Assembly (NCBI RefSeq): GCF_022919215.1
Contig: NZ_CP095046.1
Coordinates: 3,090,501-3,154,500, forward strand
Source: Hymenobacter cellulosilyticus
GTDB taxonomy: Bacteria; Bacteroidota; Bacteroidia; Cytophagales; Hymenobacteraceae
Direction of reading: 5' to 3'
Length of the DNA stretch: 64,000 nt
Below the pieces are notes generated by a model. It saw nothing but the letters and a program-made list of their open reading frames with translations, had not been told where the DNA came from and searched no databases. This document shows, one piece after another, positions 38,693 to 64,000 of this stretch (positions within the stretch are counted from its first letter, which is position 1; each line of letters begins with the position of its first letter). A program made the translations under genes and the position numbers.

Positions 38693-39331
38693 ATGCATCT
38701 TCACCGTCTGCCCGAAGTAATGCACCGCTGGCTGCCCAACACCATCTGGCGCGGCCCGCACGCCGAGCCGGAGCATCCCACACTCTACCTGACCTTCGAC
38801 GACGGTCCCATTCCGGAGGAAACGCCCTGGGTGCTGGAGCAGCTGGCCCAGTTCAACGCCAAAGCCCTGTTTTTCTGCGTGGGCGACAACCTGCAGCGTC
38901 ACCCGGATATTGCCCTGGCCGCCCTGGCCGCCGGGCACCGACTCGGCAACCATACCTTCCACCACCTCAGCGGCTGGAGTACGCCGGCGGCCACATATTA
39001 CGACGACATTGCCCGCTGCCAACACGCCCTCGACGCGGTGCAGCCCGCCGATGTAGTTCAGTATTTTCGCCCGCCCTACGGCCGTATTACGCCCGCCCTG
39101 AACCGCCACCTGGAGCCCCGGTACCGCATCGTTATGTGGGACTTGCTCACCTGCGACTACGACAAAAACTACGCCTCCGAAAAGTGCCTGCGCGACGCCC
39201 TGCGCCTGACGCGGCCGGGCTCGGTGGTAGTATTTCACGACAGTATCAAGGCCAGCCGCAACCTGCGCTACGTGCTGCCGCGCTACCTAGCCCACTTTGC
39301 CGAGCAGGGCTACCGCTTCGAGCTGCTTTAG
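38693..39331 (+). CDS. polysaccharide deacetylase (NodB homology)
   Basis: A 212-residue carbohydrate esterase family 4 domain. TLYLTFDDGPIPEE carries the catalytic Asp and metal Asp, HRLGNHTFHHLSG the H-x3-H metal site, YFRPPYGRIT the arginine-binding motif, and SVVVFHDSIKASRN the last His. No signal peptide is evident, so it may act in the cytoplasm or be exported by an unusual route. Likely removes N-acetyl groups from the polysaccharide made by this cluster, or from peptidoglycan. Confidence 0.9.
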   Translation: MHLHRLPEVMHRWLPNTIWRGPHAEPEHPTLYLTFDDGPIPEETPWVLEQLAQFNAKALFFCVGDNLQRHPDIALAALAAGHRLGNHTFHHLSGWSTPAATYYDDIARCQHALDAVQPADVVQYFRPPYGRITPALNRHLEPRYRIVMWDLLTCDYDKNYASEKCLRDALRLTRPGSVVVFHDSIKASRNLRYVLPRYLAHFAEQGYRFELL

Positions 39332-39342
39332 GCTTCGTTTCA

Positions 39343-40442
39343 ATGGTTTTTCTCACGGCTTACTTTGCGCTCTGGTTTCTAGTTCTGGCCGCTTCGGCGC
39401 TGCTGTTCTGGGTGCGGCCCCGGCCGGCTCCGGCTCCGCTGCCCCAGCCCTGGCCCCGGGTCAGTATCCTCATTGCGGCCCGCAACGAGGAAGCTGCTAT
39501 TGGCCGCTGCCTGCGCGCTATTCGCAGCCTGAGCTACCCGGCGGAGCTTGTGGAAGTGCTGCTCGGCGACGATGCCTCCACCGACCAGACCCGGGCCGTA
39601 GCCGAAGCCGCCATGCAGGGCTACGGCGGCCAGTTCCGTTGCACTACCATCACCGAGCCGCTGGGCCTGGCCCGGGCAAGGCCAACGTGCTGGCCCACCT
39701 GGCCCGGGCTGCCACCTCCAAGTTTTTCTTTATCACCGACGCCGATATTGCCGTGCCTACCGGCTGGATTCAGGGTTTGCTGCCGTTTGCCACGCCTGAA
39801 GTCGGCACAGTCACGGGCCTGACCGTGGTGCAGGGCCCGCGCCTGTTCGACCGGCTCCAGGGCCTCGACTGGCTGCAGTCCTTGGGCCTGGTGCAAGTGG
39901 TGTCCGACTTCGGGCGGCCCGTCACGGCCATGGGCAATAACATGCTGGTGACGCGGGCCGCCTATGAGGCCACCGGGGGCTACGAGCAGTTGCCATTTTC
40001 CGTGACGGAAGACTACGCCTTGTTTCAAGCGGTGCTAAAGCAGGGATTCACGTTTCGCAACGTGTTCCGGCCCGAAGTGCTGGCCGTTTCGTTGCCCATC
40101 AGCACGCCCGGGCGGCTGCTGCACCAGCGGCGGCGCTGGATGCGGGGCGTAGAAGCCCTGCCGTGGTGGCTACAGGGCGGGCTGCTGTTCTACGCCGGCT
40201 TTTACCCGTTGCTGCTGGTGCTGGCCTGGGTGGCCGGACCGGTTGCGGCCCTGGGTGTGCTGGGAGCCAAAGTACTGCTGCAAGGACTGCTAGCGGCTGC
40301 CTGCTACCACCGCGCCGGCTTGCGCATGCCCTGGCACCTGCTGCCCGCCTTCGAGGTCTATACCCTTGCCCTAACCGTAAGCCTGAGCGTATTTCGCCTG
40401 TTGCCGCTGTCCTTCGATTGGAAAGGGCGGGTGTATAAGTAA
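39343..40442 (+). CDS. membrane glycosyltransferase family 2, one -1 frameshift
   Basis: An N-terminal helix (FLTAYFALWFLVLAASALLF), then GT2 motifs: PRVSILIAARNEEAAIGRCL, VLLGDDASTDQTRAVAEA, KFFFITDADIAVPTGWI (DxD), PFSVTEDYALFQAVLKQGF (TED) and HQRRRWMRGVEALPWW (QxxRW), with C-terminal helices. One G missing at 39674-39676 splits the frame; restoring it gives LARGKANVLAHLARA and 366 residues. Processive-type sugar transferase, last gene of the plus-strand polysaccharide block. Confidence 0.88.
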
Positions 40443-47754: not shown

Positions 47755-48377
47755 CAAACTCATTTACGATCGAGAGCAAGCCAATTCAAACCGTCCTAGG
47801 AGTCCTGCACCAAAGCATAACAGCCGGGTCAACTACTGAACATACTAACAGCAGACCTTTGCTTGCGGAACGAAAGCCTGCGGAAGGTGAGCCGCTGGGC
47901 GTTCCGCTACCCAACCCTGGTGCTGCAACGCCAGGGTTGTTGCGTTTACTCCTTCCTTATGGCTGGTAATGGCGGCTAACGCGGCCTTGTTGGCCCCCAC
48001 ACCTACAGAGTAGGGGCATGGCACATTCCGCTACTACAAGCAGGAGGTCTGCGGCTAGAGCAACAGCTGCATACGCGGTGCAGGGGCTGAAGCGCATCGT
48101 GTAATAATTACATAATTTATAGAAAACACTGGCTCAACACGTAGTGTATTCCTTTGTGCTGCGCCAAAGTACTTTTTCTCGGAAACCATCAGCAGCCCTT
48201 TTGCCTGGGTCATAAGGCCCTGATACGCCTACGGATTTTCTGAGAAGAGTACGCTATTCCCACCCACTGTCTTCCTGTATTCCGCACTAATCTGTCCTGC
48301 CCAAGGCCTGGTCTGGGCCTTGCCATGCCGCTAGAATCCGGTTGGGAAGTTGCCTTTTTCTGCTCACTCTACTCTCT
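47755..48377. other. intergenic region before the phosphoesterase locus
   Basis: About 620 bases without a gene. A hairpin AACCCTGG / CCAGGGTT (47913-47938) may terminate the upstream gene. A leader hairpin CAAGGCC / GGCCTTG (48302-48321) lies 56 bases before the SusC start. No perfect -33/-7 pair was found; the SusC promoter should lie in the AT-rich part 48100-48200. Confidence 0.45.
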
Positions 48378-51300
48378 ATGCCTGCCCCCGTATTGAAAAC
48401 TCATTACACCCACGCAGCAGTACTGGCCGTAACCTTATCCGCGCTGAGCGCGGAGGCCCTGGCCCAACCAGCCGAAGCTTTGACCCCAACGGGGTAGCCC
48501 AGCTAGCCGGCGCCGCCGAGCAGGTTATAAGCGGCCGCGTAGCCGACAAGAATGGCCAACCCCTGCCGGGAGTAACTGTGCTGGTAAAAGGCACTTCTAC
48601 CGGCACGGCCACGGATAACGAAGGCCGCTTCCAACTGACCCTGGCCGACCCGGCGCAGGCAGTGCTGGTAATATCTTTTATTGGCTACCAGACGCAGGAA
48701 CTGCGAGTAGCCGATCAGACCAGCTTTGAGCTAACGCTCCTGGAGTCGGCTACTGGCCTGGAGGAAGTGGTCGTCATTGGCTACGGTACCGCTAAGCGCG
48801 AAAATATTACGACGGCGGTGGCCTCCCTGCCCAACCCGAGAAAATTGCCAATCGGCCCCTAACCACCGTGCAGGATATGCTGCAGGGTAATCTGGCCGGG
48901 GTAACGGTGGTGCAGAACGGGGGCGACCCATCGGCTTCGGCCCGGGTCATTATCCGCGGGGCCGGCACGCTCAACAGCGAAGCCCCCCTGTACGTGGTCG
49001 ACGGCATGCCTTATTATGGCGGACCGCTCAACCCCAACGACATTGCCAGCATTACGGTGCTCAAGGATGCCGCCTCAGCCGCCATCTACGGGGCTCAGGC
49101 TTCCTCGGGTGTCATCGTGGTGACCACGAAAAGCGGCAAGAATGGGGCTCCCCGCGTAACCATCGACACCTACCATGGCTGGCAAACCGCCTACCGCACG
49201 CCCCAGGCTTTGAACGCAGCCGAGCAGGCCGCCGCTTACAACCAAGCCGCCGACAACGCCGGCGTGGGCCGTCCGGCTGCCCATGACCCGGTGCAAAACC
49301 CCTGGGGCCAGGTAACGCGTACCAACTGGATAAACGAGATATTCCGTACGGGCAGCATATACAACCTGAATGCCACCGTGAGCGGGGCAACGACCGGGGC
49401 CGGTTCCTGACCTCCTTTGGCTACCATGATCGGGAAGGGCTGCTCATCAGTACCAACCTCAAGCGCTACTCTCTGCGCCTGAAGTCGGACTACGGCCTGG
49501 GCGACAAGGTGAGCATTGGGCAGAACGTGTACGTGAACCAGACCAAAGCCCGGGGCACGAACACCAGCAACGCCTACTCCGGCAGCATCCTCAACGCCAT
49601 CTTCATGCCCGCTGCCGCCGCGGCCCGCTACGCCGACGGCTCCTACGGCGGCGTAACCCCGCTGGCGCCCGCGCCCGAGTTCAAGTACGCCGGGGCCTAC
49701 GGCGACGTATATAACCCGGTGGCCTTGCTGGAGCGGCCCACGATCAACAACCCCGTATTCAACCTAAACGGCATCGGGTACGTGGAGTACCGCCCACTCA
49801 CCGACCTGAAGCTGCGCAGCAGCTTCAGCCTGGATGTGCTGCGGGAGTCCAATAAGCGCTTTGACCCGCGCATACCCGAGCCCGGCCGCAGCAACACGAT
49901 GAACTACCTGACCCAGAGCGAGTCGCGGCGCGACAAGTGGATCTGGGACAATCAGGCTAGCTACCAGAAAGCCCTGGGCAAGCACCTTTTCGATTTGACA
50001 GCCGTGTACTCGGCCCAGCGCACCAACTACGAATACTACTGGCTCAAGGGCCAGAACTTCGACCGCGAAGACCGCTGGTATCAGTATATCGGCAACGCCA
50101 AGGAAGTGGTGGAGCGGCCCACCAGCGACGTGTATGAGGAAGCCCTGACCTCTGCCATTGGCCGCCTGACCTACAGCTTCGACGACCGGTACTTTCTGAC
50201 CGGTAGTTTGCGCCGCGACCAGTCCTCGCGCCTGCTGAAATATAATTCCGACTACTTCCCGGCTGTGTCGGGGGCCTGGAAAATCTCCTCCGAGCCCTTC
50301 TTCCGACTACCCGCCGTGCAGACGCTGAAGCTGCGGGCCTCCTGGGGACAAATCGGCAACATCCAGTCGGTGAACTACTACGCCTACAACGTGCCGCTGG
50401 TGACCAGCCAGGCCTACCTGGGCAGCACCCCGGGCTACAGCAACGGCTATTTCGTCAACAAGCAGTCGAACCCCGACCTGCAGTGGGAACGGTCCGAAAC
50501 CTATGATGCCGGTTTGGACGTGGGCCTGCTGGATAACCGCCTGACGCTGACGGCCGACTACTTCCAGAAGTTTACCCGCGGGCTGATTCTGCCTATCGCG
50601 CCGAATCCGAGCAGCGGGGTAGCCGAAGGTCCCACGGCCAACGTGGGCACCGTACTCAACAAGGGCTTCGAGCTGAGCGTGGGCTACGCCGGCCAGGCCG
50701 GCCCCGTAGCGTTCCAGGTGAATGGCAACGTGGCCACGCTGAAAAACCGCGTGGAAGACCTCAACGGCTACGGCAGCGACTTTATCCAGCACACCGACAA
50801 CGTGCGCACCCAGATGTACCCCTTCCGCTCGGCCGTCGGCCAGCCCTTGTACGCCTACTACCTCGTGCCAACCGACGGCCTGTTTCGCTCCGAGCAGGAG
50901 GTTAGCGCCTACACCAACGGCGAGGGCAAGCTGATTCAGCCCAGCGCCAAACCCGGCGACCTGAAGTTCCGGGACTCCAACAATGACGGCCGCATCGACG
51001 ACAAGGACCGTGTTTTCATGGGCAACGCTATGCCTAAGCAAACCTACGGGCTTACCCTCGGCGGGCAGTGGAAAGGCTTTGACCTGAGTGTATTCTGGCA
51101 AGGGGTGAGCGGGGTCAAGCTCTTTAACGGCTACAAGTTCGCTACTTACAACGCCGGCCTGCAGGGCTACAACCTCGACCGCCACGTGCTCGACGCCTGG
51201 ACGCCCCAGAACCCCGACGCCAGCATCCCGCGCCTTTCGCTCAACGACGCCAACAAGAACTTCAGCCTGCCCTCCGACTGGTACCTGGAGAACGGCTCCT

Positions 51301-51520
51301 ACCTGCGCCTGAAAAATTTGACCGTGGGCTACACCCTGCCCGCAGCCTGGAGCAGCCGCGTGCGGACCGGCGCCAGCCTGCGCCTCTACGGCACGGTGGA
51401 GAACCTGGTCACCTTCACCAAGTACTCGGGCATGGACCCCGAAATCGGGGCGTAGGCCTGGATTTGGGTACCTACCCGGTGGCCCGCACCTTCACGGTCG
51501 GCCTGAACCTGGGCATTTAA
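48378..51520 (+). CDS. SusC/RagA-family TonB-linked outer-membrane transporter, four -1 frameshifts
   Basis: About 1048 residues. ATG 48378 opens a signal peptide (VLKTHYTHAAVLAVTLSALS), then a carboxypeptidase-like domain (VISGRVADKNGQPLPGVTVL), the SusC hallmark ATGLEEVVVIGYGTAKRE, a plug (MLQGNLAGVTVVQNGGDPSA, LYVVDGMPYY, SITVLKDAASAAIYGAQASS) and the barrel, ending TFTVGLNLGI. Frames break at G/C runs 48491-48494, 48835-48837, 49384-49387 and 51447-51450; one base at each restores the whole. Imports a ligand delivered by the SusD protein encoded 24 bases downstream. Head of a six-gene plus-strand series with phosphoesterases. Confidence 0.93.
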
Positions 51521-51544
51521 GTAACTGACGGACCCTCTTTTCTT

Positions 51545-53101
51545 ATGAAATACCCCGCGCTTCTTTTCACGGCCCTGCTTTTGGGCGCTGCCACCAGCTG
51601 CCAGGACGACTTCACCGACCTCACGCCCCAGGGCACCATCACCTACGCCAACTTCTGGAAAACCGACGCCGATGCCCTGGCCGCTGCCAATGCCCTGTAC
51701 GGCTACATGAACAACGACGACATGTTCGGGCGGGGCTTCTTCTGGCTGATCAACGCCTCCGACGACATGGTGACGGGGCGGGTACGGGCCACGGCGGCCA
51801 ACGTGCGCAACTTCACGGCCACCGGCGACGAGGGCGACACCAACAAGATGTACGGCTACTCGTACCGGGTTATCCGCCGGGCCAACGAGGTGCTGAAGAA
51901 CGTGCCGGCCATGAGCATCGACGAGAAGCTCAAAAACCGGGTGCTGGGCGAGGCCTACTTTATGCGGGCCTTCTCCTACTTCCACATTGCCACCCGCTAC
52001 GGCGACCAGCGCGCCGGTGTGCCCCTGGTAACCGTGGAAAACATGGACCAAAACACGTTTCCCCGCCCCGCAAGCGTAGTGGCCAACTACGAGCTCATGG
52101 AGCAGGACCTGAAAAAGGCCGCCGAGCTGCTTCCCCTGGTTACGGCCTACTCGGGCGCCGACCTGGGGCATGCCCACAAGGATGCGGCCCTAGCATATTT
52201 GGCTAAAACCTACGTGTTCTGGGCCCAGTACGACAAAAGCAAGTGGGTTCTGGCCGAGCAGGCCGCCGAGGCCGTGACGCAATCCGGTTCGGGGCGGGCC
52301 CTGCTCAACACCGGCAAGCCCAAGGAGGACTTCCACTCGGTGTTTACGATTCAAAACAACTGGTCGAAGGAGTACATCTGGTCGGTGGTGTCGGGCAAGC
52401 AGGACGGGAGCATTCTGCCCGGCGTGCTGCTGGAAAACAAGGGCTGGGGCAAGTACAACGGCTGGGGCTACTTCCAGCCTACGCTGGACCTGTACGAGTC
52501 GTTCGAAGCTGGTGACCCGCGCCGGGAAGCCACCATCCTTTCCTTCGGCGACGAGTTCACCTACCTGGGGCAGAAGCAGAAATACTCCTCCACCAACTCG
52601 CTGACCGGCTTTCAGTTCAGCAAGTACATGGAGCCCTACACCTACCCGGCCACCGAGCACCTGAACGCCAACGGCGACAAGCCCACCACCGACCTGAATG
52701 TGCCGCTGATGCGCTACGCCGAGGTGCTGCTGCTGCAGGCGGAGGCTCAGATCATGCAGGGCAAGAGCGGCGACCAGGCCCTGAACGCCGTGCGCCGCCG
52801 GGCCGGTTTGCCGCTGCTGACGGGCGCTACCCTGGCCGACCTGAAGCGGGAGCGGCGCTCGGAGCTGGCCGGCGAGTTTGCCGACCGCCACGCCGACCTC
52901 GTGCGCTGGGGCGATGCCCAGGCCGCCTACGCCAAACCCCAGCGCGGGCGCGAGTATGCCGACAAGGCCAACCCGGCCTCGACTTACAAGGTGGTAGAAG
53001 TATGGCCGGCCCGCACCTTCAACCCCGCCGTGCACCACGTGTGGCCCATCCCGCCCATCGACCTGAACAATTCGAAAATCGCCCAAAACCAGGGCTGGTA
53101 A
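51545..53101 (+). CDS. SusD/RagB-family nutrient-binding lipoprotein
   Basis: A 518-residue surface lipoprotein with lipobox around Cys19 (LLLGAATSCQDD). SusD features: NFWKTDADALAAANALYGYM, the TPR-like helices EAYFMRAFSYFHIATRYGD, and C-terminal MRYAEVLLLQAEAQIMQG, LNAVRRRAGLP, KRERRSELAGEFADRHADLV and VWPIPPIDLNNSKIAQNQGW. Works as the lid of the SusC transporter upstream. Unlike most neighbours its frame is intact. Confidence 0.95.
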   Translation: MKYPALLFTALLLGAATSCQDDFTDLTPQGTITYANFWKTDADALAAANALYGYMNNDDMFGRGFFWLINASDDMVTGRVRATAANVRNFTATGDEGDTNKMYGYSYRVIRRANEVLKNVPAMSIDEKLKNRVLGEAYFMRAFSYFHIATRYGDQRAGVPLVTVENMDQNTFPRPASVVANYELMEQDLKKAAELLPLVTAYSGADLGHAHKDAALAYLAKTYVFWAQYDKSKWVLAEQAAEAVTQSGSGRALLNTGKPKEDFHSVFTIQNNWSKEYIWSVVSGKQDGSILPGVLLENKGWGKYNGWGYFQPTLDLYESFEAGDPRREATILSFGDEFTYLGQKQKYSSTNSLTGFQFSKYMEPYTYPATEHLNANGDKPTTDLNVPLMRYAEVLLLQAEAQIMQGKSGDQALNAVRRRAGLPLLTGATLADLKRERRSELAGEFADRHADLVRWGDAQAAYAKPQRGREYADKANPASTYKVVEVWPARTFNPAVHHVWPIPPIDLNNSKIAQNQGW

Positions 53102-53167
53102 TTTCCCGCGCCCGCCTTTTCCCGTACGACTCGTTGGTCGGAGGGAAGGGGGGCCTTACTGTTTTTC

Positions 53168-53976
53168 ATGCGCAATTCGCTTCGCTACGCGGCCGTAGTT
53201 CTGCTGCTGGCTACTACTGCCCAGGCCCAAACGCCCCGCTTCCAACCGGCTCCCCCCTGGAACAAGGACACTCCCACAACGACTACTGGCGCCCTCATCC
53301 GCTGGTGGATGCCCTGCAACTGGGCTTTAAAAGCGTGGAGGCCGACATTTTTCTGATTGATTCAACCCTGCAAGTGGGACACGAGCGAACCGCCCTAAAC
53401 CCGACCCGTACCCTGCAAAGCCTCTACCTGGACCCGCTGCAACAGCAGTTGCGCAATGGCGGCCAACTCTACACCCGGCCCGCGGAGCTGTGGCTGTTCG
53501 TGGATTTCAAAACGGCCGGCCCGGCTACCTACGCCCAGCTGCGGCGCGTGCTCAGCCGGTACCGCGACTTGCTCGTCACGCCCCGGCAGGCCCGGCCTGG
53601 CGGGGTGCGCGTTATCCTGACCGGCAGTTACACCCGGCCCGAGGTGCTGGCTGATGCCGACCGGCTGGTATTTCTGGATGGGCTGCTCTCCGACTTGCAG
53701 CCGCAATTGGCCACCACCATTCCTGCTGTCAATGGGGACTGGCGGCAGAGTTTTCGCTGGGATGGAACCGGCAAGATGCCGGCCGCGGAGTCGGCCCGCC
53801 TACAGAAGCTGAGCGCGCAGGCGGTCAAGTATGGGCAGAAAGTGCGGTTCTGGAACCTGCCAGCCGCCACCGCGGCCCAGCGGCGGGCCGTCTGGCAGGA
53901 ACTGTTGCTGTATCCAGGGCTGCTGGTCGGGGCCGATGAGCTGGGCGAGCTGAAGCAAGTAATTGATGGGAAATAG
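53168..53976 (+). CDS. exported GDPD/PI-PLC-like phosphodiesterase, one -1 frameshift
   Basis: Signal peptide MRNSLRYAAVVLLLATTAQA, then a TIM-barrel phosphodiesterase of the glycerophosphodiester/PI-PLC group: PLEQGHSHNDYWRPHPLVDA (catalytic-type His), KSVEADIFLIDSTLQVGHE (acidic metal ligands and second His), LWLFVDFKTAGPATY and VRFWNLPAATAAQRRAVWQE near the end. One C is missing in the run 53252-53257; with it the protein has 269 residues. Acts in the periplasm or on the surface on phosphodiester head groups. Its last 11 bases overlap the metallophosphoesterase gene. Confidence 0.85.
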
Positions 53977-55500
53977 CTTCGTGCGCTACGCCTGGCCATG
54001 GCTGTTTGGGCTGCTGGCTGCTCAGGCTCCCGCGCAAAGCCAGCATTTCACGCCGCGCACCGTGGCTGGCACCGTCTTCGTCGACCAGAATGGCAACGGC
54101 CGGCGCGAGGCCGCCGAAGCCGGGGTAGCCGGCGTGCTGGTGTCCAATGGCGTTGAGATAGTGCCGACTGACACCCAGGGCAGATACCGCCTGAGCACCC
54201 GGCCCGGCCGGCTGGTTTTTGTAGTGAAGCCCCGCGGCTATGCCCCCGTCCGGCCCGAAGGCTGGTATTATCAGCCGACTACGGCTAGCCGCCAAACGGC
54301 GGATTTTGCACTCCGCCTGGCTGTGGAGAAAAACGCCCACCAGGTGGTGCTGCTCGGCGACATTCAGGCCGGCAGCCAGGACGACCTCTACCACTTCAAC
54401 CATCTGGTAACCGAGGAGCTCTACGACGACCCTTACGCCTTTGCCCTCACCCTGGGCGACATCACCTTTGATGAGCTGGGCGTATACCCCAAAACCAAGG
54501 CCAGCCTGGCAGCCCTGGGCAAGCCGGTGTACGCCGTGTTCGGCAACCACGACCAGAACTACGAAGTCCGGGAGGCTGCCTACGCCGACTCTACTTACCA
54601 GCGCTACTTCGGCCCTTCATATTATGCCCTGCAATACGGGCGCACCCACTTCATCGTGCTCAATGATGTGGCCTGCCTGGGGCAGAAGAAGTACGAAGGC
54701 CGGGTATCGAGCGAGCAGCTAACCTTCCTGACCAACTACCTGCAACACTCCGACCCCAGCAGCTGCACGTGCTGGCCATGCACATTCCCCTGGCCGAAGT
54801 AGTAAATAAAGCCGACCTGCTGGGCGTGCTGGCCCAGCACCCGAACGTGGCCTTTATTTCGGCCCACGAGCACCGCAACCGGCGGGAGTTCCACGCCCAG
54901 GCGCATGGGGCAACCTGGCAGGAAGTGGTGGTCGGCGCTACCTGCGGGAGTTGGTGGCAGGGGGAGCACGACATCTTCGGCATCCCCTCGGCCCTGATGA
55001 ACTGCGGCGCGCCCAAGGGCTACTGGAAGCTGCAGGTGGGCGAGCAGGGTGACTATCTGCTGGCCTACAAGGCCTCCCAGTACCCGGCCACCTTCCAGCT
55101 GAGCGTCTGGACCCCGGAAGACTCGGAGTGGGACCCGGCCCAGAATTTGCCCGCCGACTCGACCCGAAATGTGGCCCTGATCAACGTGTTTGCCGGCTCG
55201 AGCAAAACCCGCGTCGAGTTTCGCCTCAGCGACGGGGCCTGGCAGCCCGCTTACCCCGTAGCGGTTCCTGACCCGTACGTAGCCCGAATTTACCAGCTCC
55301 AGCAGCGCCGGATTTACCCCACGGCCAAAGCCTCCGCCTTGGCGGGGCAGGCCGAACCCAGTCCCCACCTGTGGCGCGCCCGCCTGCCCGACAGCCTACC
55401 GGTGGGCACCCACAAAATTGAAGTGCGCGCCACCGACCCCTATGGCCTCCAGGCCCGGGCCTACCGCGTGCTAACCGTCAACCCTCCTTCCCGGCCCTAA
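53966..55500 (+). CDS. exported three-domain metallophosphoesterase, one -1 frameshift
   Basis: About 511 residues after adding one C at 54754-54757. Signal peptide (about 1-22), an N-terminal beta domain (VAGTVFVDQNGNGRREAAEA, GVAGVLVSNGVEIVPTDTQG), a calcineurin-like catalytic domain with metal motifs VVLLGDIQAG, TLGDITFDELG, VFGNHDQNYEV, HVLAMHIPLAE and FISAHEHRNR, and a C-terminal beta domain (AFAGSS-like VFAGSSKTRVEFRLSDGAWQ). This is the MetallophosN/Metallophos/MetallophosC architecture. A paralogue lies at 58974 on the other strand. Overlaps the GDPD-like gene and ends two bases before the alkaline phosphatase gene. Confidence 0.88.
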
Positions 55501-55502
55501 GT

Positions 55503-56727
55503 ATGCTCTCCTCCTGTTCGTTTGCCTGGTTGCTGCTCGGAGGCTTAAGCCTGGTATCCTGCGCCCGTCCCCACCAGGCCACTGCCCCCTCGCGCAGCGT
55601 TGTAATCGAGGCCCTCAAGCAGCAGCCCGATGCCGCGGCCGCGCCGGAAATTCCCCTCGAAAAGCGCGAGTACGGGCCGGGCAAGACGTACGAGGTGCCG
55701 GTGCTTGCACCATACGCCGGGCCGCGCAAGCCCCTGAAAAACATTATTCTGCTGATTGGGGACGGAATGGGGCCGGCCCAGGTCACGGGTGGGCTGATAG
55801 CCAACCGGGGCAGCTGTATCTGCAGCAGGCCCAGGTCACGGGCCTTTCCATCACGGCCAACCAGTACGGCAAGATTACCGACTCGGCGGCCAGCGCCACG
55901 GCCATGGCCACCGGGCACAAAACCTACAACGGCGCCATCGGCATGGACTCCCTGGGGCATTCGTTTCGCTCCATTATGTGGGACGCGCGCGCCCAGGGCA
56001 AATCCACGGGCCTGGTGGTAGCCTGTGAGCTGCCCGATGCCACACCCGCCTGCTTTGCCGTGAACCACCCCAACCGCCAGGACCTGGAGGTTATTGCTCG
56101 CAAGTTTCTGGATGCACCTATTGACTTCATGTACGGGGGTGGGCTGAAGTTCTTTACCCAGCGTAAGGATCAGGTAGATTTGCTAGCCCAGTGGCGGGCC
56201 AAAGGCTACCAGGTAGCCACTACCCCCCAGCAGGCCCGCGCCCTGACCAGCCCCGGGCCGTGGCCCTGCTGGCCGACAATGGCCCGGCCCGGATGCCCGC
56301 CCGAACGGCAGCCTACATGGAGCTGGGTTTCGACAAAGCCCTGGAGCTGCTGGGTAAAAACGAGAAGGGCTTTTTTCTGATGGTAGAAGGCTCGCAGATT
56401 GACGATGCCGGCCACTTCAACGATACTTCCTACAATGTGCAGGAGGTCCTGGATTTCGATCAGCAGGTGGGCAAGGCCTTCCGCTTTGCGGCCCAGAACG
56501 GGGAGACTCTGGTAATCGTCACGGCCGACCACGAAACCGGCGGCTACAGTGTGACGGGAGGAAGCAGCCAGACCGGCAAGCTCACGGGCCGCTTCACCAC
56601 GACGCACCACTCGGCCGTGGTGGTGCCCGTGTTTGCCTATGGCAATGGCAGCGAGCTGTTCACCGGCCTGTATGAGAATACGGAAATCTACCACCGCATC
56701 AAGCGGGCTATGACCAAAGCTAATTAA
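55503..56727 (+). CDS. alkaline phosphatase (PhoA superfamily) lipoprotein, two -1 frameshifts
   Basis: Lipoprotein signal LLLGGLSLVSCARPH (Cys20), then NIILLIGDGMGPAQVTGGLI (metal Asp), the nucleophile region ITDSAASATAMATGHKTYNG, LVVACELPDATPA, LMVEGSQIDDAGHFND, VIVTADHETGGYSVTG and TTHHSAVVVPVFAYG, the complete metal-ligand set of alkaline phosphatases. Frames break at 55807-55810 (G) and 56251-56254 (C); one base at each gives 408 residues. Releases phosphate from monoesters on the cell surface or in the periplasm, the expected last step after the phosphodiesterases beside it. Confidence 0.9.
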
Positions 56728-56853
56728 AAGTCAATAAATTGATTAACAGTAAATTATGTAATAAATAATTAACCATTGCTTAACTGCTGGCAGGCCAAAA
56801 AGGAAGAGTTTTGGGCTCATCTCTCACAACCCAAACCCTCTTTCTAACCGCGT

Positions 56854-57807
56854 ATGAAATCAACGGTTAATCTTTTCGCTCTGGCGGCCAGCTTACTATT
56901 CACTTCCTGCGACCAGCAAGAAACGGTAAGCCCCGCCGGTGCTGCCGCAACTCAGTCGCAGGATGCCGTGGCCGCCTACACGCTAGCTAACTGGATGGGC
57001 TCGGTGGATGCTTCCCTGTCGCTGGCTCAACTCAGCATTCCCGGCACCCACGACTCCGGCGCCCGCTTCGAGTCCATTGCCGGTACGGCCAAGTGCCAGA
57101 CACTGACCATCGGCGAGCAACTCAATGCCGGGGTGCGCTTCCTGGACGTGCGCTGCCGCCACATTGATAACTCCTTTACCATTCACCACGGGGCCGTGTA
57201 CCAGAACCTGAACTTCGCGGACGTGCGGGCGGCCTGTCTGGAGTTTTTGCGCACGAATCCGACGGAGTGCATCATCATGTCCATCAAGGAAGAGCACACG
57301 CCCAGCAACAACTCCCGCACCTTTGAGCAGACACTCAATGCCTTCCTGCAGGAAAACCCCGATACGTGGTACGTGGGCGAATCGGTGCCGACGCTAGGGC
57401 AGGTGCGTGGCAAGATCGTGCTGCTGCGCCGCTACGCCGCCACAACTCCCAAGGGCATCGACGCCACCAACTGGGCCGATAACACTTCGTTTGACATCAC
57501 TACGCCCGCCGCTCAGCTCAAAGTGCAGGACCAGTATAAAGTGTCGGATAACAACGCAAAGTGGACGGCCATGAGCACGCTGCTCACCGAAACCAAGGCC
57601 AGCACGACCAACCGCCTGTACCTCAACTACGCCAGCGGCTACAAGCCCGGCTTGTTTGGTATTCCCAGCATCACGACGGTTTCCAACAATATCAATCCGC
57701 GCCTGACGACCTTCTTCACGGCCCAAGGCAAAGGCCGCTTCGGCATCATCCCGATGGATTTTGCCGAGTCGTCCCGCAACAGCCTGATTGTGAAAACAAA
57801 CTTCTGA
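56854..57807 (+). CDS. PI-PLC X-domain phospholipase C lipoprotein
   Basis: A 317-residue lipoprotein (LLFTSCDQQ, Cys19). The bacterial PI-PLC active site is clear: His66 and Asp67 in SIPGTHDSGARFESIA, Arg100 in VRFLDVRCRHID, His111/112 in FTIHHGAVYQNLNFADV, with KIVLLRRYAA and GIIPMDFAES as later barrel strands. Cleaves phosphatidylinositol or glycosyl-PI head groups by forming the cyclic phosphate. A 126-base AT-rich gap precedes it, so it may have its own promoter. Last gene of the plus-strand series; ends facing the minus-strand GDPD. Confidence 0.93.
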   Translation: MKSTVNLFALAASLLFTSCDQQETVSPAGAAATQSQDAVAAYTLANWMGSVDASLSLAQLSIPGTHDSGARFESIAGTAKCQTLTIGEQLNAGVRFLDVRCRHIDNSFTIHHGAVYQNLNFADVRAACLEFLRTNPTECIIMSIKEEHTPSNNSRTFEQTLNAFLQENPDTWYVGESVPTLGQVRGKIVLLRRYAATTPKGIDATNWADNTSFDITTPAAQLKVQDQYKVSDNNAKWTAMSTLLTETKASTTNRLYLNYASGYKPGLFGIPSITTVSNNINPRLTTFFTAQGKGRFGIIPMDFAESSRNSLIVKTNF

Positions 57808-57834
57808 TTCGTGGTCTAGCAGAAGTCAGTGTTA

Positions 57835-57892
57835 ACGCGTACCCGGAGAGTAAGAGGCGAGGGGATTCGCTTCCTGCTCTCCGGGTACGCGT
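57835..57892. terminator. long perfect hairpin between convergent operons
   Basis: Arms ACGCGTACCCGGAGAG (57835-57850) and CTCTCCGGGTACGCGT (57877-57892) are perfect complements of 16 bases around a 26-base loop that itself has a small GCGA/TCGC pair. There is no long T-run, so it may act as a bidirectional terminator or as an RNA end-protecting element. Confidence 0.55.
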
Positions 57893-57977
57893 ATTTGGGC
57901 TGAGTGCAGAGCGTGTAAAACCCGCTCTTGTGAGCGAACAGGAATATTCGGTAATAAAATGCGCCCCGCAGACCAGC

Positions 57978-58859
57978 TTAAAAGCCAGTAAACAAATCCG
58001 GATAGTCCGTAATAATACCATCTACCTGCAGCCGAATCAGCTGCTCGATGGCTGTAGCTGAGTTAACCGTCCAGGGAATAACTTGTACGTGTTGCTGGTG
58101 GCAGGCAGCTACCAGCTCGGCCGTCACCAACGCGTAAGCGGGGCTGTAAATGGTCGGGCGGAAGCTCAGGCGCTGCAAGTTCTTTTCCCAGCCTAGTTTG
58201 TTGTCCACTAACATGGCCGTCGCTATAGACGGGTAGCGACGGTGCACTAGCTCGAGCGTGCGCGGGTCGAAGGACTGAATGATAACCCGCTGCTGAATGC
58301 CTTTCTGCACCAGGATGGACAGAAGCAGCTGCACGAACTCAGCCGGCGCGGGGTGTAGCACGTCGTCGCCCGCCGGCGTCGATTTGGTTTCGATATTATA
58401 GCGGGGCAGGGGCAAGTGCCTGCTCCGCGCGTAGGCTTCCACCGAATCAATGACTTCAGCCAGCAAGGGCTTATACGTGCGCAGCTTTTGCTGCCGGGGA
58501 AACTTTGGATTACCCAAGCTACCGACGTCGTAGCGCCGGATTTCGGCGTAGGGCAGCCCATACAGACGGTGCTGCTGCTCCTCGTCTTTCCGCAAGGGCT
58601 GCCCCTGGGGAGTCAGCACAAAGGCGGCATTCATATATGGGTCGTGCGAGAGCAGCACCTGCTTGTCCTGACTTACCAGCACGTCCATTTCCAGCGTCGT
58701 TACCCCCAGATCCAAGGCCTTGCGCATGGCCGGAATGGTGTTTTCGGGCATCAGCCCCCGGCAGCCCCGGTGCCCCTGCCGGTCAAAGGACGGGGTTTGA
58801 GCCAGGGCCGGAAGCGTAGTAAGTAGCCCCAGCAGGAAAAGCACACACCTCAGCGTCAT
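57978..58859 (-). CDS. exported glycerophosphodiester phosphodiesterase
   Basis: A 293-residue GDPD starting at ATG 58857-58859 (MTLRCVLFLLGLLTTLPALA signal peptide). Catalytic residues are all present: His30-Arg31 in DRQGHRGCRG, Glu39-Asn40 in MPENTIPAMR, Glu57/Asp59 in TLEMDVLVSQD and His72 in VLLSHDPYMN; YNIETKSTP and TDYPDLF follow. Splits glycerophosphodiesters to glycerol-3-phosphate and an alcohol in the periplasm. Downstream end of the minus-strand SusCD unit. An earlier ATG (58907) is possible but would spoil the signal peptide. Confidence 0.93.
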   Translation of the reverse strand: MTLRCVLFLLGLLTTLPALAQTPSFDRQGHRGCRGLMPENTIPAMRKALDLGVTTLEMDVLVSQDKQVLLSHDPYMNAAFVLTPQGQPLRKDEEQQHRLYGLPYAEIRRYDVGSLGNPKFPRQQKLRTYKPLLAEVIDSVEAYARSRHLPLPRYNIETKSTPAGDDVLHPAPAEFVQLLLSILVQKGIQQRVIIQSFDPRTLELVHRRYPSIATAMLVDNKLGWEKNLQRLSFRPTIYSPAYALVTAELVAACHQQHVQVIPWTVNSATAIEQLIRLQVDGIITDYPDLFTGF

Positions 58860-58973
58860 CGGAATAAGTAAGTAGCAGAACTCCGTAGCCCAAGGCAGCA
58901 ACCTCAAGCTACGGAGTAAATAAACAAGCTTTGCCCCGGCTATCCGCAGACGAACCAGAGGCTACTAAGGACC

Positions 58974-60482
58974 TTAAGCTGTCAGCGTATCGGTATAGAC
59001 CTGCCCAAACCGGTCGGTGACTTCCACCCGGATCTGCTTGGCCTGGGCCGAGACATTGGCCACAAACAGGTGGTCGGTCAGGGTCGGGTCGACCCACTTA
59101 TGCTTGGCCGGCAGGGCCGAGCCGGCATGCAGCCGCACCGAGAGCGGGTCGAGGCCAGTATGCTGGCTCATGCTGCCTTTGCGCACGCCGTCTTCGAACC
59201 ACTCCACTTTCCACTGCGGGTCCCAGTTCCAGACGTTGACCACCAGGGCTTCCGGGCGCTCGGGCAAGCTGCCTTTGGGGTAGATCCGAAACTGGTGACT
59301 GCGCTCCTGCCCAATGGACTTGTAATACCATTTCAGCTCGGCGCCGTGCACCTCATACACCCCGTAGCCGCCGGGGGTACCGTCGGTGCAGATGGGGCCG
59401 GTCCACCACGCCCCGCACACGGTGCCGTGCACGTGCTCGGTCACATTGTCGGCCGTTTGCAGCACCTCGTTGAAGTGGGTATGACCCGACATAATATGCG
59501 CCTTATAAGGCTTGAGCAGGCGGTAGAGCTCTTGGCGGTTGGCTACCACGCCGCCCATGGGCTCGTCCTTTTCCTTGTTGCGCAGGTGCTGCCGGGTGTA
59601 GGGCGGAATGTGCAGGCTCACCACCACGGTGCTACCCGCTTTCACCTGGGCCAGATCCTGCTCCAGCCACGCCAGCTGCCGCTCGGTCAGGTAGCCGATG
59701 TATTTCTTCGGCGGGCCGATGAAGAACACGTCATCGAGCACCACGTAGTGAATTTGTCCCCGGTTGAAGGAGTAGTACGTGGGCCCGAACAGCTTCTTGA
59801 ACGTGTCCGACGAATGCTCGTCGGTGCGGGCCGTCAGGTCCATGTCGTGGTTGCCGATAACCTGGAAGAACGGAATACCGGTGCTGGCCACGCCCTGCTT
59901 GTAGTCTTCGAACAACTCAAAATGGTCCCAGACCAGGTCACCGCAACCGATGCCGTGAAACAGCGCCTTGGCCCCGTAGCTAGCAATGAGCTTTTGCGTG
60001 TCCGGCACGGCCGTGGCCTTGAATTCGGCGGCGTCGGCCTTGGATATCATCTGCGGATCGGCCCAGACCAGAAAGTTGTGGTTCGTGTCGTCCTGGGCGA
60101 GCTTGTGCAGCTCGAAATCGGCTTTAAAGCGGCCCCGTACCGGCTCTTTTCGGCGGTAGAAGTTTGCCACGCCCTGCTCGTGCTCAAAGGCATAGCCGCT
60201 AGGCACCGAGATGTACACAAATTCGGTGGTCCCGTTGCTGTCCAGCTCGTAGTTGCCCTTGGCATCGGTCAGCACAACGCTGAGGCCATCGGTAACGGCC
60301 ACGCCGGCCACGCCCTGCCCGCCCGCCTGCACTTTGCCGCTGAGCGTGACCACGGCCGTTTGCTCGCTGGCTCCCGAGAGCGTTGCCGCTTTCGGCCGGG
60401 CCAGTCCCAGGTTTACGTCGAGCGTCAGGCCCAGACCGGCCAGGCCAACGGATTTAAGGAACGTTCTTCTTTGCTGAGACAT
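58974..60482 (-). CDS. Tat-exported three-domain metallophosphoesterase
   Basis: A 502-residue protein from ATG 60482. The N-terminus MSQQRRTFLKSVGLAGLGL is a twin-arginine (Tat) signal. A beta domain (VTLSGKVQAGGQGVAGVAVT, TDAKGNYELDSNG) precedes the calcineurin-like domain: WADPQMISKADAAEF, GIGCGDLVWDHFEL, QVIGNHDMDLTART, VVVSLHIPPYTRQ, HIMSGHTHFNEVL. A C-terminal domain (WNWDPQWKVEWFEDGVRKGS) completes the same architecture as the protein at 53966, but that one uses a Sec signal. The intact frame and Tat route suggest folding with metal in the cytoplasm before export. Confidence 0.92.
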   Translation of the reverse strand: MSQQRRTFLKSVGLAGLGLTLDVNLGLARPKAATLSGASEQTAVVTLSGKVQAGGQGVAGVAVTDGLSVVLTDAKGNYELDSNGTTEFVYISVPSGYAFEHEQGVANFYRRKEPVRGRFKADFELHKLAQDDTNHNFLVWADPQMISKADAAEFKATAVPDTQKLIASYGAKALFHGIGCGDLVWDHFELFEDYKQGVASTGIPFFQVIGNHDMDLTARTDEHSSDTFKKLFGPTYYSFNRGQIHYVVLDDVFFIGPPKKYIGYLTERQLAWLEQDLAQVKAGSTVVVSLHIPPYTRQHLRNKEKDEPMGGVVANRQELYRLLKPYKAHIMSGHTHFNEVLQTADNVTEHVHGTVCGAWWTGPICTDGTPGGYGVYEVHGAELKWYYKSIGQERSHQFRIYPKGSLPERPEALVVNVWNWDPQWKVEWFEDGVRKGSMSQHTGLDPLSVRLHAGSALPAKHKWVDPTLTDHLFVANVSAQAKQIRVEVTDRFGQVYTDTLTA

Positions 60483-60572
60483 GCCTATCAAGGAAACTTA
60501 AAATACGCTTATTGAAAATCGGGTGCCCGGCGGCTTGAGGGCCGAAAGTCCAGCGGCCGGGTACCCCAGTAC

Positions 60573-62013
60573 TTATTTTTCCCACCACACCTTGGTGTTC
60601 ACGTCATCGGCGCCCATGGCCTGCACGGCAGCGCGGTAGTTGTTGCCGTTGTTGGTTTGCACGATTAAGGGGTACTTAAAGCGAGTGGGCATCACGCCGT
60701 TGTTTTGCAGGTCCTGGCCACGGGCAGTTTCGGCAGGCCCGTACGGCGGTACTCAAACCACTGCTGGTAGTCGTTGAAAAACAGCGCGTAGTACTTTTGC
60801 AGCATGATGCGCTCCAGCGTGCCATTATAGGCGGCCGCGGGGTTCTGGAAGTAGGTGGCAGGCATCGTCACGCCCCATTGCTCCATGGCAGCCTTCACGC
60901 CCCGCTCATAGTGGGTGCGTGCATCGGCCGTGGTGTAGCCGCGCTGGGCGGCCTCGGCCTTGATGAACTCGACTTCGGCGTAGCTCATCAGCACGGCGGG
61001 CATGGGAGCGGCCACCGTAGCCTGAACCAGGGCTATGTTGAAGTTGGATGGCTGGAACTGGAACTGCGCGTCGCTGCCGCCGTAGGCGCTCGGAATGCCT
61101 TTGTAGCCGATGTTGCTGCGCCCGTCCTTGGTCTTGGCCTGGGTGGTGAACTTAGCCAGGCGCGGGTCGTTCCACGTGTTAAGGTTGTCGATGAAGAACT
61201 CGGCGGCCGCCCGGCTCGTGGTGAAGTCGATGGCCCGGCCCCAGGGGAGATATTGGGCGTAACTCCAGTGATTTTCAGGATAGCCGACTCGCTGTTTTGC
61301 GTGAATACCGGGTACTTCACCGGGTCGTTGATCATGGCTGCCAGCCGGGACGCCGTATTCATTTCCGGGCGCTTGGAGAGGCGCAGCAACAGGCGCATGC
61401 GCAGCGAGTTGCAGAAGCGCCGCCAACTGGCGTCTTTGTTCTCGAAGAGAATATCGGTGCCGTAGGTCATCGGCTTGGCGGCGTCAAACAGGGAATTGGC
61501 CGTCTCCAGGTCGTTAAGAATCTGGGTGTAGATCTGCTGCTGGGAGTCGAAGGCCGGGTAGAGCAGTCCTTCTTCGGCCCGGCTGGCCTCAGTCATGGGC
61601 ACATCCCCGAAGCAGTCGGTCAGGTTGGCGTAGACCCAGGCGTTCAGGGTCAGGGCAATGGCTTCGTAGTTGGGAGCCTGGGCGGCCTGGGCGGCGGCGC
61701 GCATCTCCCGGATGTTGGCCAGCCAGCGGTAGTAGGTGGTCCAGGTGGTGTTGCCGGCGCTTTCGCTTACCACGTAGCGGTGCACCCCGCCCGAAACACT
61801 GGGAAAGGGGAGGGCCACCTGCATAATATCGAAGGTGAAGGCATCGGCCCGCAAGGCGTTGAAGGAAGCTACCTCGTACACAATGGGGTTGAGCAGGGTG
61901 CCGGGGCTGATTTTCTCGATGCGGGTCGGGTCGGTGTTCAACTCCTCAAACCCATCGGTGCAGGAAACCACGCTGCCGCTCAGGGCCAGCAACAGGAGCA
62001 GGTATTTTTTCAT
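60573..62013 (-). CDS. SusD/RagB-like lipoprotein (SusD_2 type), two -1 frameshifts
   Basis: Lipobox at Cys18 (LSGSVVSCTDGFEELNTDPT, the classical SusD_2 opening). YYRWLANIREMRAAAQAAQ, NAWVYANLTDCFGDVPMTEA, DASWRRFCNSLRMRLLLRLS and MSYAEVEFIKAEAAQRGYTT are family blocks; the end reads PLIVQTNNGNNYRAAVQAMG then VNTKVWWEK. Breaks at 61244-61247 and 60718-60719 each lack one base; restored length is 480 residues. It belongs to a different SusD subfamily from the one at 51545, so the two systems probably bind different ligands. Partner SusC is 33 bases upstream. Confidence 0.9.
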
Positions 62014-62046
62014 GGGAAGACGGCGGAAAGTAAGCGGCGGGTAGCG

Positions 62047-64000
62047 CTAGAATTGCAGGGTAAGGTTCACGCCCATCGTGCGGGTGGAGGGCAGCTGGCC
62101 GATTTCGACGCCAGGCAGGATGGTGCCGCCGTTGAGGGCCGCCGTTTCGGGGTCGAACATGGGAAACTTGGTCCACATGGCCAGGTCGCGGCCGTACAGG
62201 CCGATGGTGGCACCGGTCAGGGCCTTGGTGCGGGCCAGCAGGCCGGCGGGCAGGCTGAACTCCATGCGGGCTTCGCGCAGCTTCAGGTATGAGGCGTCAA
62301 ACGAATTGCTCTCGATGTTGGCGCGGCGGTAGAACTCGGCGTAATAAGCGGCCGGAATCACCTTGGTCGTGTTGGGCGAGTAGGTGCCGTCCCCGTTGGC
62401 CACTACCCCGTCGCCGATGATGAAGCCTTCCTCCCGGCCCGGCAGCGTCGATTTAAGCTTGCCCTGCTCGCTCATCTTGTGGTGGGTCTGGGAGTAGACG
62501 ATGCCGCCGTACTGCCCGTCTAAGAGCACGCTCACCCGGAAGTTCTTGTAGGAAAACTCGTTTAAAAAGCCGCCTTTCCAATCGGCGTAGGCCCGCCCGA
62601 TGTACTTGATGTTGGCCGGCTGCACCGGCAGCCCGTCCTTGTTATAGATGATTTTACCCTCGGGCGAGTAGTCGAAGCCGTAGCCGTAGATGTCGCCGGT
62701 GGTGCCGCCCACGGTGGCCAGCAGCGTGGCCGTGCCGCCCGCGCCAATCACCTGCTGGTCTTCCAGGCCGCCGGCCAGGCTCAGCACCTTATTGCGGTTG
62801 CGGGACCAGGTAAGGGTGTTTTTCCACTTAAAAGCGTTGTTGTCGATGGGGCGCGTGTTGAGCACCACTTCCACGCCCCGGTTGCGTACGGCTCCCGCGT
62901 TGAGCAGGGCCCTGGTATAGCCGGTGGTGGGGTCGATGGGCACTTCCAGAATCTGGTTGCGGGTCGTGTTCTGGTACACCGTCAGGTCGGCCCCAATGCG
63001 GCCCTGGAACATCAGATACTCCAGCCCGGCCTCGTAGCTGACGGTTTGCTCGGGCTTCAGGTTTTTGTTGTAGAGCGTGGTAGCCACCGAGCCCGCGCCC
63101 GGAAAGTCGCTGCGGCCATAGTACTTGTTGTTGCCGTAGGGGTCGGTGTCGTTGCCCACTTTGGCCGCCGAGAGCCGCAGCTTGGCCAGCGAAATAGAAG
63201 CCGGCAGGGGCAGCAGCTCGTTGAGAATAAAGCTGGTGCTGACGGAAGGGTAGGAGAAGGGCAGGTTTTCCACCGGCAGGGAGCTCGACCAGTCGTTGCG
63301 CCCGGTCAGGTCGATGAAGATCTTGTCGTCGTAGGACGCCGTGAGCAGGGCGTAGTTGCTGTTGATGTCCTTCTCGTACACGGTGGTACCCAGCAAGGCG
63401 GTGTTGGCTCCGTTGGCCAGCTTGTAGACGCCCGGAATGACCAAGTCGCGCACGGAGGCCTCGGAGCTGCGGTTGCGCCGCCGCATGGCGTTGCCGCCCA
63501 CCGAGGCGCGCAGGTCGAACCGGTCCTGGAATTCCTTGTGGTAGGTCAGCAGGAAGTCCGTGTTGATTTCGTAGTTGCTGATGTCCTGCTGCTTGAAGTA
63601 GCCCTTCTGGAAGTTGGCCGTGCTGTAGGGCCGGCGCATCTCACGCTGCTCCTGGGTCATGGCAATGCCCGAGCGCACCAGCAGGCTTAAGTCCTTGGTG
63701 AAATCGTAGGTGCCCGAAATGTTGCCGACCGTGGTGCGTGTCACGGCCGAGTTGGTCATTTCGTAGGCAATCAGGTAGGGGTTGTCGATAAAGGAGCTAA
63801 ATGGGTGGACCTGGTCCACCTGGTCGAGGCCGTATTTCCAGATCGTCCGGTACGCGTCGAGCGGCACGTTGGGGTTCTGAAAAATCATGAAGTACGACAG
63901 CGACTGGTTGTTGTAGCCGGTCGCGGGTAGGTTGTCGGCGGTGCGGTTGGTGAAGTTCACCTTGCCGGCCAGCTTGAGCTTGGGCGTGAGGCTGTGGTTC
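62047..64000 (-). CDS. SusC/RagA-family transporter, C-terminal part (runs off the window)
   Basis: The frame is open from the right edge to the stop at 62047; about 650 residues of a SusC barrel are visible, with TSFILNELLPLPASISLAKL, LRLSAAKVGNDTDPYGNNKY, EQTVSYEAGLEYLMFQGRIG, LNAGAVRNRGVEVVLNTRPI and the end STRTMGVNLTLQF. The N-terminal signal, carboxypeptidase-like domain and plug lie outside. No frame break in the visible part. Heads the minus-strand unit SusC-SusD-metallophosphoesterase-GDPD. Confidence 0.92.
   Translation of the reverse strand, partial: NHSLTPKLKLAGKVNFTNRTADNLPATGYNNQSLSYFMIFQNPNVPLDAYRTIWKYGLDQVDQVHPFSSFIDNPYLIAYEMTNSAVTRTTVGNISGTYDFTKDLSLLVRSGIAMTQEQREMRRPYSTANFQKGYFKQQDISNYEINTDFLLTYHKEFQDRFDLRASVGGNAMRRRNRSSEASVRDLVIPGVYKLANGANTALLGTTVYEKDINSNYALLTASYDDKIFIDLTGRNDWSSSLPVENLPFSYPSVSTSFILNELLPLPASISLAKLRLSAAKVGNDTDPYGNNKYYGRSDFPGAGSVATTLYNKNLKPEQTVSYEAGLEYLMFQGRIGADLTVYQNTTRNQILEVPIDPTTGYTRALLNAGAVRNRGVEVVLNTRPIDNNAFKWKNTLTWSRNRNKVLSLAGGLEDQQVIGAGGTATLLATVGGTTGDIYGYGFDYSPEGKIIYNKDGLPVQPANIKYIGRAYADWKGGFLNEFSYKNFRVSVLLDGQYGGIVYSQTHHKMSEQGKLKSTLPGREEGFIIGDGVVANGDGTYSPNTTKVIPAAYYAEFYRRANIESNSFDASYLKLREARMEFSLPAGLLARTKALTGATIGLYGRDLAMWTKFPMFDPETAALNGGTILPGVEIGQLPSTRTMGVNLTLQF

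Follow-up and report, generated by a model that had tools for sequence, protein, structure and literature searches.

The PusCD concept, or 'Phosphate utilisation system', was published in 2020 by Lidbury et al., who report six PusCD forms in Flavobacterium (PMC8115612). Locus PUSII of Flavobacterium johnsoniae consists of FecR, PusC2, PusD2, and PhoA1 (Fjoh_3249; PF00245 and PF13653). PhoA1 is reported to be induced along with its PusCD and FecR under depletion of inorganic phosphate (Pi), and PusCD2 to respond to Pi depletion only, not to nitrogen or iron limitation, despite its FecR (PMC8115612). Here we describe a related locus of Hymenobacter cellulosilyticus. In a window of 64,000 nucleotides (the whole stretch analyzed, positions 3,090,501 to 3,154,500 of contig NZ_CP095046.1), which is one part of a 6.09 Mb genome in three contigs, two SusCD pairs flank six exported phosphoesterases from position 48,378 onward. 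Unit A, on the plus strand, has the order susC1, susD1, a gene like glycerophosphodiester phosphodiesterase (GDPD-like), a metallophosphoesterase (MPPa), an alkaline phosphatase (ALP), and PI-PLC. Unit B, on the minus strand, holds susC2, susD2, a second metallophosphoesterase (MPPb), and a GDPD. The units lie tail to tail and converge between 57807 and 57978. The genes and their order are as described in the original prediction, an earlier reading of the same DNA; its idea of a phosphodiester locus built on SusCD, offered as new, had already been published as PusCD. Both units probably belong to the PusCD kind and serve to scavenge organophosphates under the control of phosphate starvation.

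Two separately inherited SusCD units

A genus survey covered 120 Hymenobacter genomes, with the 12 best candidates per genome scored for SusD1. SusD1 was found in 13 genomes, MPPb in 29, and PI-PLC in six, in every case inside unit A (6/13 unit A genomes versus 0/107 others; one-sided Fisher 4.7e-7, uncorrected for kinship). Within the 13 Hymenobacter unit A loci, GDPD-like comes after SusD1 in 12 (it was not detected in L090) and ALP is present in 12 (L095 ends before its position), with MPPa in three and PI-PLC in six. SusD1 and MPPb occur together in 11 genomes, and H. cellulosilyticus is the only one in which they are just a few kilobases apart; three others have both on a single contig, at distances of 64 kb, about 177 kb, and 1.65 Mb, and the remaining seven have them on separate contigs. 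Because 10 of these 11 genomes keep them apart, units A and B are two independent, separately inherited units. The original prediction had seen a mirror-image locus; duplication of one unit was rejected as an explanation, since the SusD types differ (PF07980/PF14322 versus PF12771). The conservation of the set in relatives, which it proposed to check, holds for the core of unit A and for the gene order of one unit B subtype, and fails for their being side by side.

Unit A extends beyond the genus. A SusD1 relative at E 1e-60 or better was found in 15 of the 20 genomes searched, H. cellulosilyticus included, and ten non-Hymenobacter unit A loci were read in Chitinophaga, Niastella, Pedobacter, Chryseobacterium, Flavobacterium, and Saccharicrinis. 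All ten show SusC and SusD followed by GDPD-like and ALP sequence, and in nine these last two form one reading frame of 604–628 codons; in Saccharicrinis they are separate genes, and a hybrid two-component regulator takes the place of ECF/FecR. In eight of the ten, genes of the size of ECF and FecR stand ahead of SusC (confirmed by Pfam in L058 only), and in H. crusticola (L007) ECF and FecR matches precede SusC1. The fusion supports the order 'diesterase, then phosphatase'. The F. johnsoniae protein P0273 (607 amino acids; PF00245, plus PF13653 below its cut-off) is the same fusion, 26% to GDPD-like and 43% to ALP, and appears to be PhoA1, judged by species, length, and domains rather than by a locus tag. 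Unit A is a homologue of PUSII and is likely to work as PUSII does; full membership is not claimed because no FecR or ECF gene was seen beside SusC1 in the window.

The GDPD-like protein gave no Pfam match in H. cellulosilyticus or H. sediminis. Its homologues are annotated as PI-PLC domain or AIM6-like proteins, more distant ones carry PF13653, and the H, E-x-D, and H positions are conserved in the family. The structure predicted for the H. sediminis protein (P0124) is a confident TIM barrel (pLDDT 89.9); among PDB entries it comes closest to a phospholipase D, at a moderate TM score of 0.55. Sequence searches of the PDB turned up nothing related to MPPb at E 0.001 and, for a GDPD-like relative (P0123), only a chance match (E 1.5). 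The alignment of PI-PLC with bacterial PI-PLCs of solved structure spans about 260 residues. Beyond the genus, PI-PLC mostly lies away from unit A. A wider check of 26 PI-PLC loci, some with short flanks, placed it beside unit A in four Hymenobacter loci and in Chryseobacterium, and within about 5 kb of it in Saccharicrinis; around the other 20, the flanking sequence covered showed no gene of unit A.

Unit B comes in two subtypes. B1 (MPPb identity of 78% or more) occurs in 12 genomes including H. cellulosilyticus, and the order SusC-SusD-MPPb-GDPD is complete in all 10 relatives fetched of the 11. B2 (63–66%) occurs in 17 genomes, 10 of which were fetched. The order SusC-SusD-DUF5689-MPPb was found in 9 of these 10 loci (L068, which ends near MPPb, was not searched for DUF5689), GDPD lies within the stretch in eight (not in L096 or L182), and ECF/FecR precede SusC in 4/4 loci checked. 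A B2-like order, SusC-SusD-gene-MPPb, also occurs in four Chitinophaga loci and one Pedobacter locus; in L071, the one locus scanned, Pfam identifies the gene in the middle as DUF5689. Identity of unit B with PUSI was considered and rejected on domains, as SusD2 is of the PF12771 and not the PF07980 type and there is no PF16670 protein; a published counterpart may exist among the six Flavobacterium forms. Near B2 units we also observed a zinc-dependent phospholipase C (PF00882; L096:4902-6173, about 3 kb away, with a 12.3-bit match to the promoter box described below) and two proteins without a Pfam match, of 603 and 470 amino acids (L070:13205-15016 and L069:14621-16033), with high-scoring boxes upstream; by these boxes the last two are candidate phosphate-starvation genes.

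A candidate Pho box

A tandem repeat of 11-bp period, GTAAY-N6-GTAAY, is found in the promoters of susC1, PI-PLC, and susC2, and the same repeat precedes phoX, choice-of-anchor I, and OlsF-like genes as well as the ECF gene of unit B2 relatives. The upstream blocks of susC1 and susC2 both hold a direct repeat of this period. Upstream of susC2 the consensus elements GTAACATnCnGGTAA and TAGTTTTG stand at a fixed distance in 11/11 B1 loci including that of H. cellulosilyticus, and the block around the susC1 box is conserved in H. sediminis and in genome G062. Four Chitinophaga unit A loci (among 11 upstream stretches) carry TTAACAATTTCATAAT 53–70 bp before the ECF gene with TTTG 36–37 bp past it, the spacing being 36 in the window and in L094. 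OlsF VC0489 of Vibrio cholerae is described as PhoB-controlled (PMC12186959). We regard the repeat as a candidate Pho box, for which these promoters are support rather than proof; the open-access literature searched yielded no Pho box sequence for Bacteroidota.

A matrix trained on the 11 B1 promoter sites was then applied to other promoters with a cut at 12 bits. Under a rule requiring an open reading frame of 200 codons and a 150-bp gap, 184 upstream stretches were obtained: 11 of B1, eight of unit A susC, one internal susC1 piece, and 164 others. The cut was reached by 6/8 unit A susC stretches versus 9/164 others, with the internal piece falling below it (Fisher 1.1e-5 for unit A versus others, that piece counted). 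The nine others include the window PI-PLC, two further SusC genes, a choice-of-anchor I neighbor, and a zinc-dependent phospholipase C. Among stretches placed by hand, susC1 of the window scored 16.0 bits and L095 14.7, and L090 and L007 remained below 12, so that 8/12 unit A susC or ECF promoters reach the cut in total. It is also reached by 4/6 phoX promoters and by 5/10 choice-of-anchor I promoters, a count that leaves out the broken gene of H. cellulosilyticus itself.

A triple form of the repeat has 111 sites in 14 genomes, and downstream genes were inspected for 30 of them. Three precede OlsF-like genes, in three genomes including H. cellulosilyticus (scores of 178–351 bits, under the 620-bit cut-off, but truncated by locus ends), two precede choice-of-anchor I genes, one a B2 ECF gene, and one a SusC gene (L174). 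The triple repeat stands before the ECF gene in 4/4 B2 loci checked, three of which were chosen because sites lay near MPPb, and directly before PI-PLC in H. cellulosilyticus and H. sediminis. A stricter pattern, with the repeat at a fixed distance from TAnnTTTG, gave 17 matches in 14 genomes versus 3 for the control (4 SusC, 4 choice-of-anchor I, 6 before one LOG-like gene family, the others unrelated; gene types partly by eye). Because this spacing proved too strict for phoX, it was set aside and scoring was restricted to the repeat itself.

In L157, L163, L169, L173, and L178, the 11-bp repeat occurs in a T-rich version ahead of genes for SulP bicarbonate transporters or carbonic anhydrases (names by eye), which perhaps points to another OmpR-type regulon. 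In L129:2133-8588, a choice-of-anchor I gene, a gene for a 489-residue protein without a Pfam match, and one for a MauG-like di-haem protein follow one another, the first two each preceded by the repeat; the row may be a phosphate-starvation operon.

The Pst operon had been considered as a positive control for the box and was dropped, as a search of 14 Hymenobacter genomes, H. cellulosilyticus included, detected PstC, a component of the phosphate ABC transporter, in none (E 1e-20). This absence fits the lack of Pst reported for plant-associated Bacteroidetes (PMC8115612). TIGR02136 matches fell below the curated cut-off in all 14 genomes and were not used as phosphate genes.

Gene complement of the window

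Coordinates and domains of the two units are collected in the table. Signal types agree by eye with the Sec, lipoprotein, and Tat signals originally proposed: ALP and PI-PLC have a lipobox, MPPb a Tat-like RRTFLK motif, and the others Sec-like signals, that of GDPD-like being recognized in relatives only. All six phosphoesterases contain motifs that we take to be active-site residues. The domain scan found no carbohydrate-active enzyme among the gene products scanned at 48.3–64 kb, in agreement with the original prediction on glycoside hydrolases, and no sugar or inositol catabolic gene is present among the open reading frames of units A and B. The closest named relative among the genomes searched is H. 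sediminis (PI-PLC 92%, SusD1 97%), whose homologues of three frame-broken genes are whole: SusC1 has 1061 residues with the plug domain present, MPPa is a single frame of 511 codons, and ALP has 406 residues. Past the window, at L003:4268-17661, three very long proteins (1061, 2021, and 828 amino acids) stand in a row that also holds a metallo-beta-lactamase-fold protein; the 2021-residue protein has a LysM match, and the long proteins are otherwise without a Pfam match.

Features of units A and B (window positions unless marked otherwise)
Feature	Position	Strand	Remarks
Candidate Pho box upstream of susC1	48101..48116	+	GTAATAATTACATAAT; TTTG of -7-like element 36 bp downstream of box
susC1, TonB-dependent outer-membrane transporter	48378..51455	+	TIGR04056, PF13715, PF00593; three reading-frame pieces plus signal-peptide piece recognized by eye
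susD1, surface ligand-binding lipoprotein	51545..53101	+	PF07980, PF14322; 97% to H. sediminis
GDPD-like exported phosphodiesterase	53138..53976 (start approximate)	+	N-terminus out of frame
MPPa, exported calcineurin-like metallophosphoesterase	53966..55500	+	PF16371, PF00149, PF16370; two frame pieces
ALP, alkaline phosphatase lipoprotein	55503..56727	+	PF00245; three frame pieces
Triple tandem 11-bp box upstream of PI-PLC	56758..56784	+	One of 9 matches in own genome
PI-PLC lipoprotein	56854..57807	+	PF00388; aligned to solved bacterial PI-PLC
GDPD, glycerophosphodiester phosphodiesterase	57978..58907	-	PF03009, PF13653
MPPb, exported metallophosphoesterase, Tat-like signal	58974..60491	-	PF16371, PF00149, PF16370
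susD2, PF12771 type	60692..62013	-	Two frame pieces
susC2	62047..64000, reaching window-numbered 65235 beyond window	-	Start outside window
Candidate Pho box directly upstream of susC2	Genome 3155778-3155793, outside window		Basis: 11-bp-period repeat

Function, alternatives, and relation to known systems

From the gene content, conservation, fusion, and shared promoter repeat we infer import, substrates, cell location, regulator, and induction as follows. SusD at the cell surface would capture a phosphodiester-bearing molecule, which SusC would import with TonB energy, and phosphate would then be stripped by the exported esterases. In unit A, the GDPD-like diesterase would turn diester to monoester and ALP would free the phosphate, with MPPa contributing further diester or monoester activity; PI-PLC, under its own promoter, would act on phosphatidylinositol or related lipids and supply the ALP of unit A with the inositol phosphate that it releases. 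Unit B may play an equivalent role through its metallophosphoesterase and glycerophosphodiesterase, and a PhoB-type regulator acting on GTAAY-N6-GTAAY would turn on both units. The original view of a phosphodiester-utilization locus thus stands as far as SusCD for phosphate esters is concerned, given the PUSII match and the repeat common to phoX and OlsF-like genes, but not as a single locus.

Alternatively, the units could serve carbon or lipid-head-group utilization, feeding on glycerol or inositol and fatty acids, with phosphate release only clearing the way. The ECF/FecR-sized genes before SusC in most non-Hymenobacter unit A loci and the ECF/FecR genes in the B2 loci checked recall substrate-sensing TonB systems, and Saccharicrinis has a hybrid two-component regulator, a type typical of polysaccharide utilization loci. 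SusCD pairs, moreover, are described as mostly importing carbon sources (PMC8115612). Yet the open reading frames of the two units include neither a glycoside hydrolase nor a gene of sugar or inositol catabolism, the promoter repeat is common to phoX and OlsF-like genes, and PusCD2 of F. johnsoniae is induced only under Pi depletion, though it too has FecR; we consider this explanation unlikely. Even less probable, and in our view very unlikely, is that the units break down a polymer held together by phosphodiesters, for example teichoic acid or phosphorylated capsule. Polyol-phosphate chains could be substrates of GDPD-like enzymes and phosphatases, and oligomers suit SusCD transporters, but the units hold no glycosidase for decorated polymers, PI-PLC, which 6 of the 13 unit A loci contain, belongs to a family acting on membrane lipids, and no result of this analysis favors a teichoic-type or other polymer substrate.

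Several results weigh against phosphate-starvation control of organophosphate scavenging. Unit A is rare in the genus, and the window shows no FecR or ECF gene beside SusC1. Four of the twelve unit A promoters, two of the six phoX promoters, and five of the ten choice-of-anchor I promoters score below 12 bits, and none of five B2 stretches upstream of SusC reaches this value. The reversed control of the triple repeat still gives 59 sites, the inspected sites beyond those named above lie in several cases before SulP or carbonic anhydrase genes and otherwise before unrelated genes, and only 2/5 PI-PLC genomes of that search have the triple repeat before PI-PLC. Thresholds were set after the data had been seen, and the genomes are related, so that counts are not independent. 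In the unit A and B loci read, whose flanks were searched for homologues of the window genes and a few Pfam domains, we found neither scattered phosphoesterases nor SusCD pairs beside glycoside hydrolases, which together would have spoken against the original prediction. Set against this is a SusC2-like/SusD (PF12771) pair of H. crusticola (L131:6831-11473) with a 16.9-bit box and without MPPb alongside, which lies opposite GH2 and pectate-lyase-like genes.

Finally, in five of the ten genes (SusC1, MPPa, ALP, SusD2, and, at its N-terminus, GDPD-like) the coding sequence is broken into two or more frames, as would be expected if the locus were decaying and these were pseudogenes in this strain. 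Ratios of non-synonymous to synonymous substitution (dN/dS, simple count) were obtained for unit A pieces against H. sediminis, SusD2 being outside the comparison. They are about 0.05–0.12 for SusC1, GDPD-like, and the C-terminal parts of MPPa and ALP, 0.20 for the N-terminal part of MPPa, and 0.29 for the N-terminal piece of ALP, which runs out of frame; the intact PI-PLC and SusD1 give 0.04–0.06. The unit A pieces are under purifying selection. Genes outside the units are likewise split over two frames (window 33203-34542 and 39136-40442; G000:C1:4296946-4297991), the split gene elsewhere in the genome being the choice-of-anchor I gene. Because of this selection, and because genes elsewhere are split too, as expected of assembly errors, most of the breaks are probably small indels of the assembly, and decay of the locus is quite unlikely.

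A broader proposal, which we advance tentatively and hold to be possible rather than probable, is that Hymenobacter without Pst takes phosphorus mainly as whole organophosphates via exchangeable Pho-controlled SusCD modules, two of which are joined here into a phosphoinositide/glycerophosphodiester island, with GTAAY-N6-GTAAY as the Pho box of these Bacteroidota. Phosphate-scavenging function of the two units by itself would mean that SusCD loci dedicated to phosphate, published for Flavobacterium, occur in Hymenobacter and other genera as well; no report of a SusCD-phosphodiesterase system in Hymenobacter was found in the open-access literature searched. That one enzyme pair exists both fused and split points to a concrete pathway from diester to phosphate, and the candidate Pho box, if true, would make the phosphate regulon of a bacterial group testable from sequence.

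The PusCD principle is prior art, to which the present loci add the split and fused enzyme pair, the recruitment of PI-PLC, a second family in the form of unit B, and the candidate Pho box. Like PUSII, unit A combines a SusC with PF13715 and PF00593, a SusD with PF07980/PF14322, and an adjacent PF00245 alkaline phosphatase, the GDPD-like part being a domain in PUSII and a neighboring gene in unit A. Unlike PUSII, Hymenobacter has the diesterase and phosphatase as separate genes and adds a metallophosphoesterase or PI-PLC in some loci, and H. cellulosilyticus lacks FecR/ECF beside SusC1. Unit B resembles PUSI (PusCD1 of F. johnsoniae) in having SusCD beside a PF00149 metallophosphoesterase and, in B2, an ECF sigma factor (PMC8115612); it differs in its PF12771-type SusD, its PF03009 GDPD, and the DUF5689 protein of the B2 subtype. 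The PI-PLC of the window shares PF00388 and catalytic-type motifs with the solved bacterial enzymes and, unlike them, is a lipoprotein inside a SusCD cluster. Both units share with polysaccharide utilization loci the clustering of SusCD with exported hydrolases, but where those loci carry carbohydrate-active enzymes, units A and B carry phosphoesterases.

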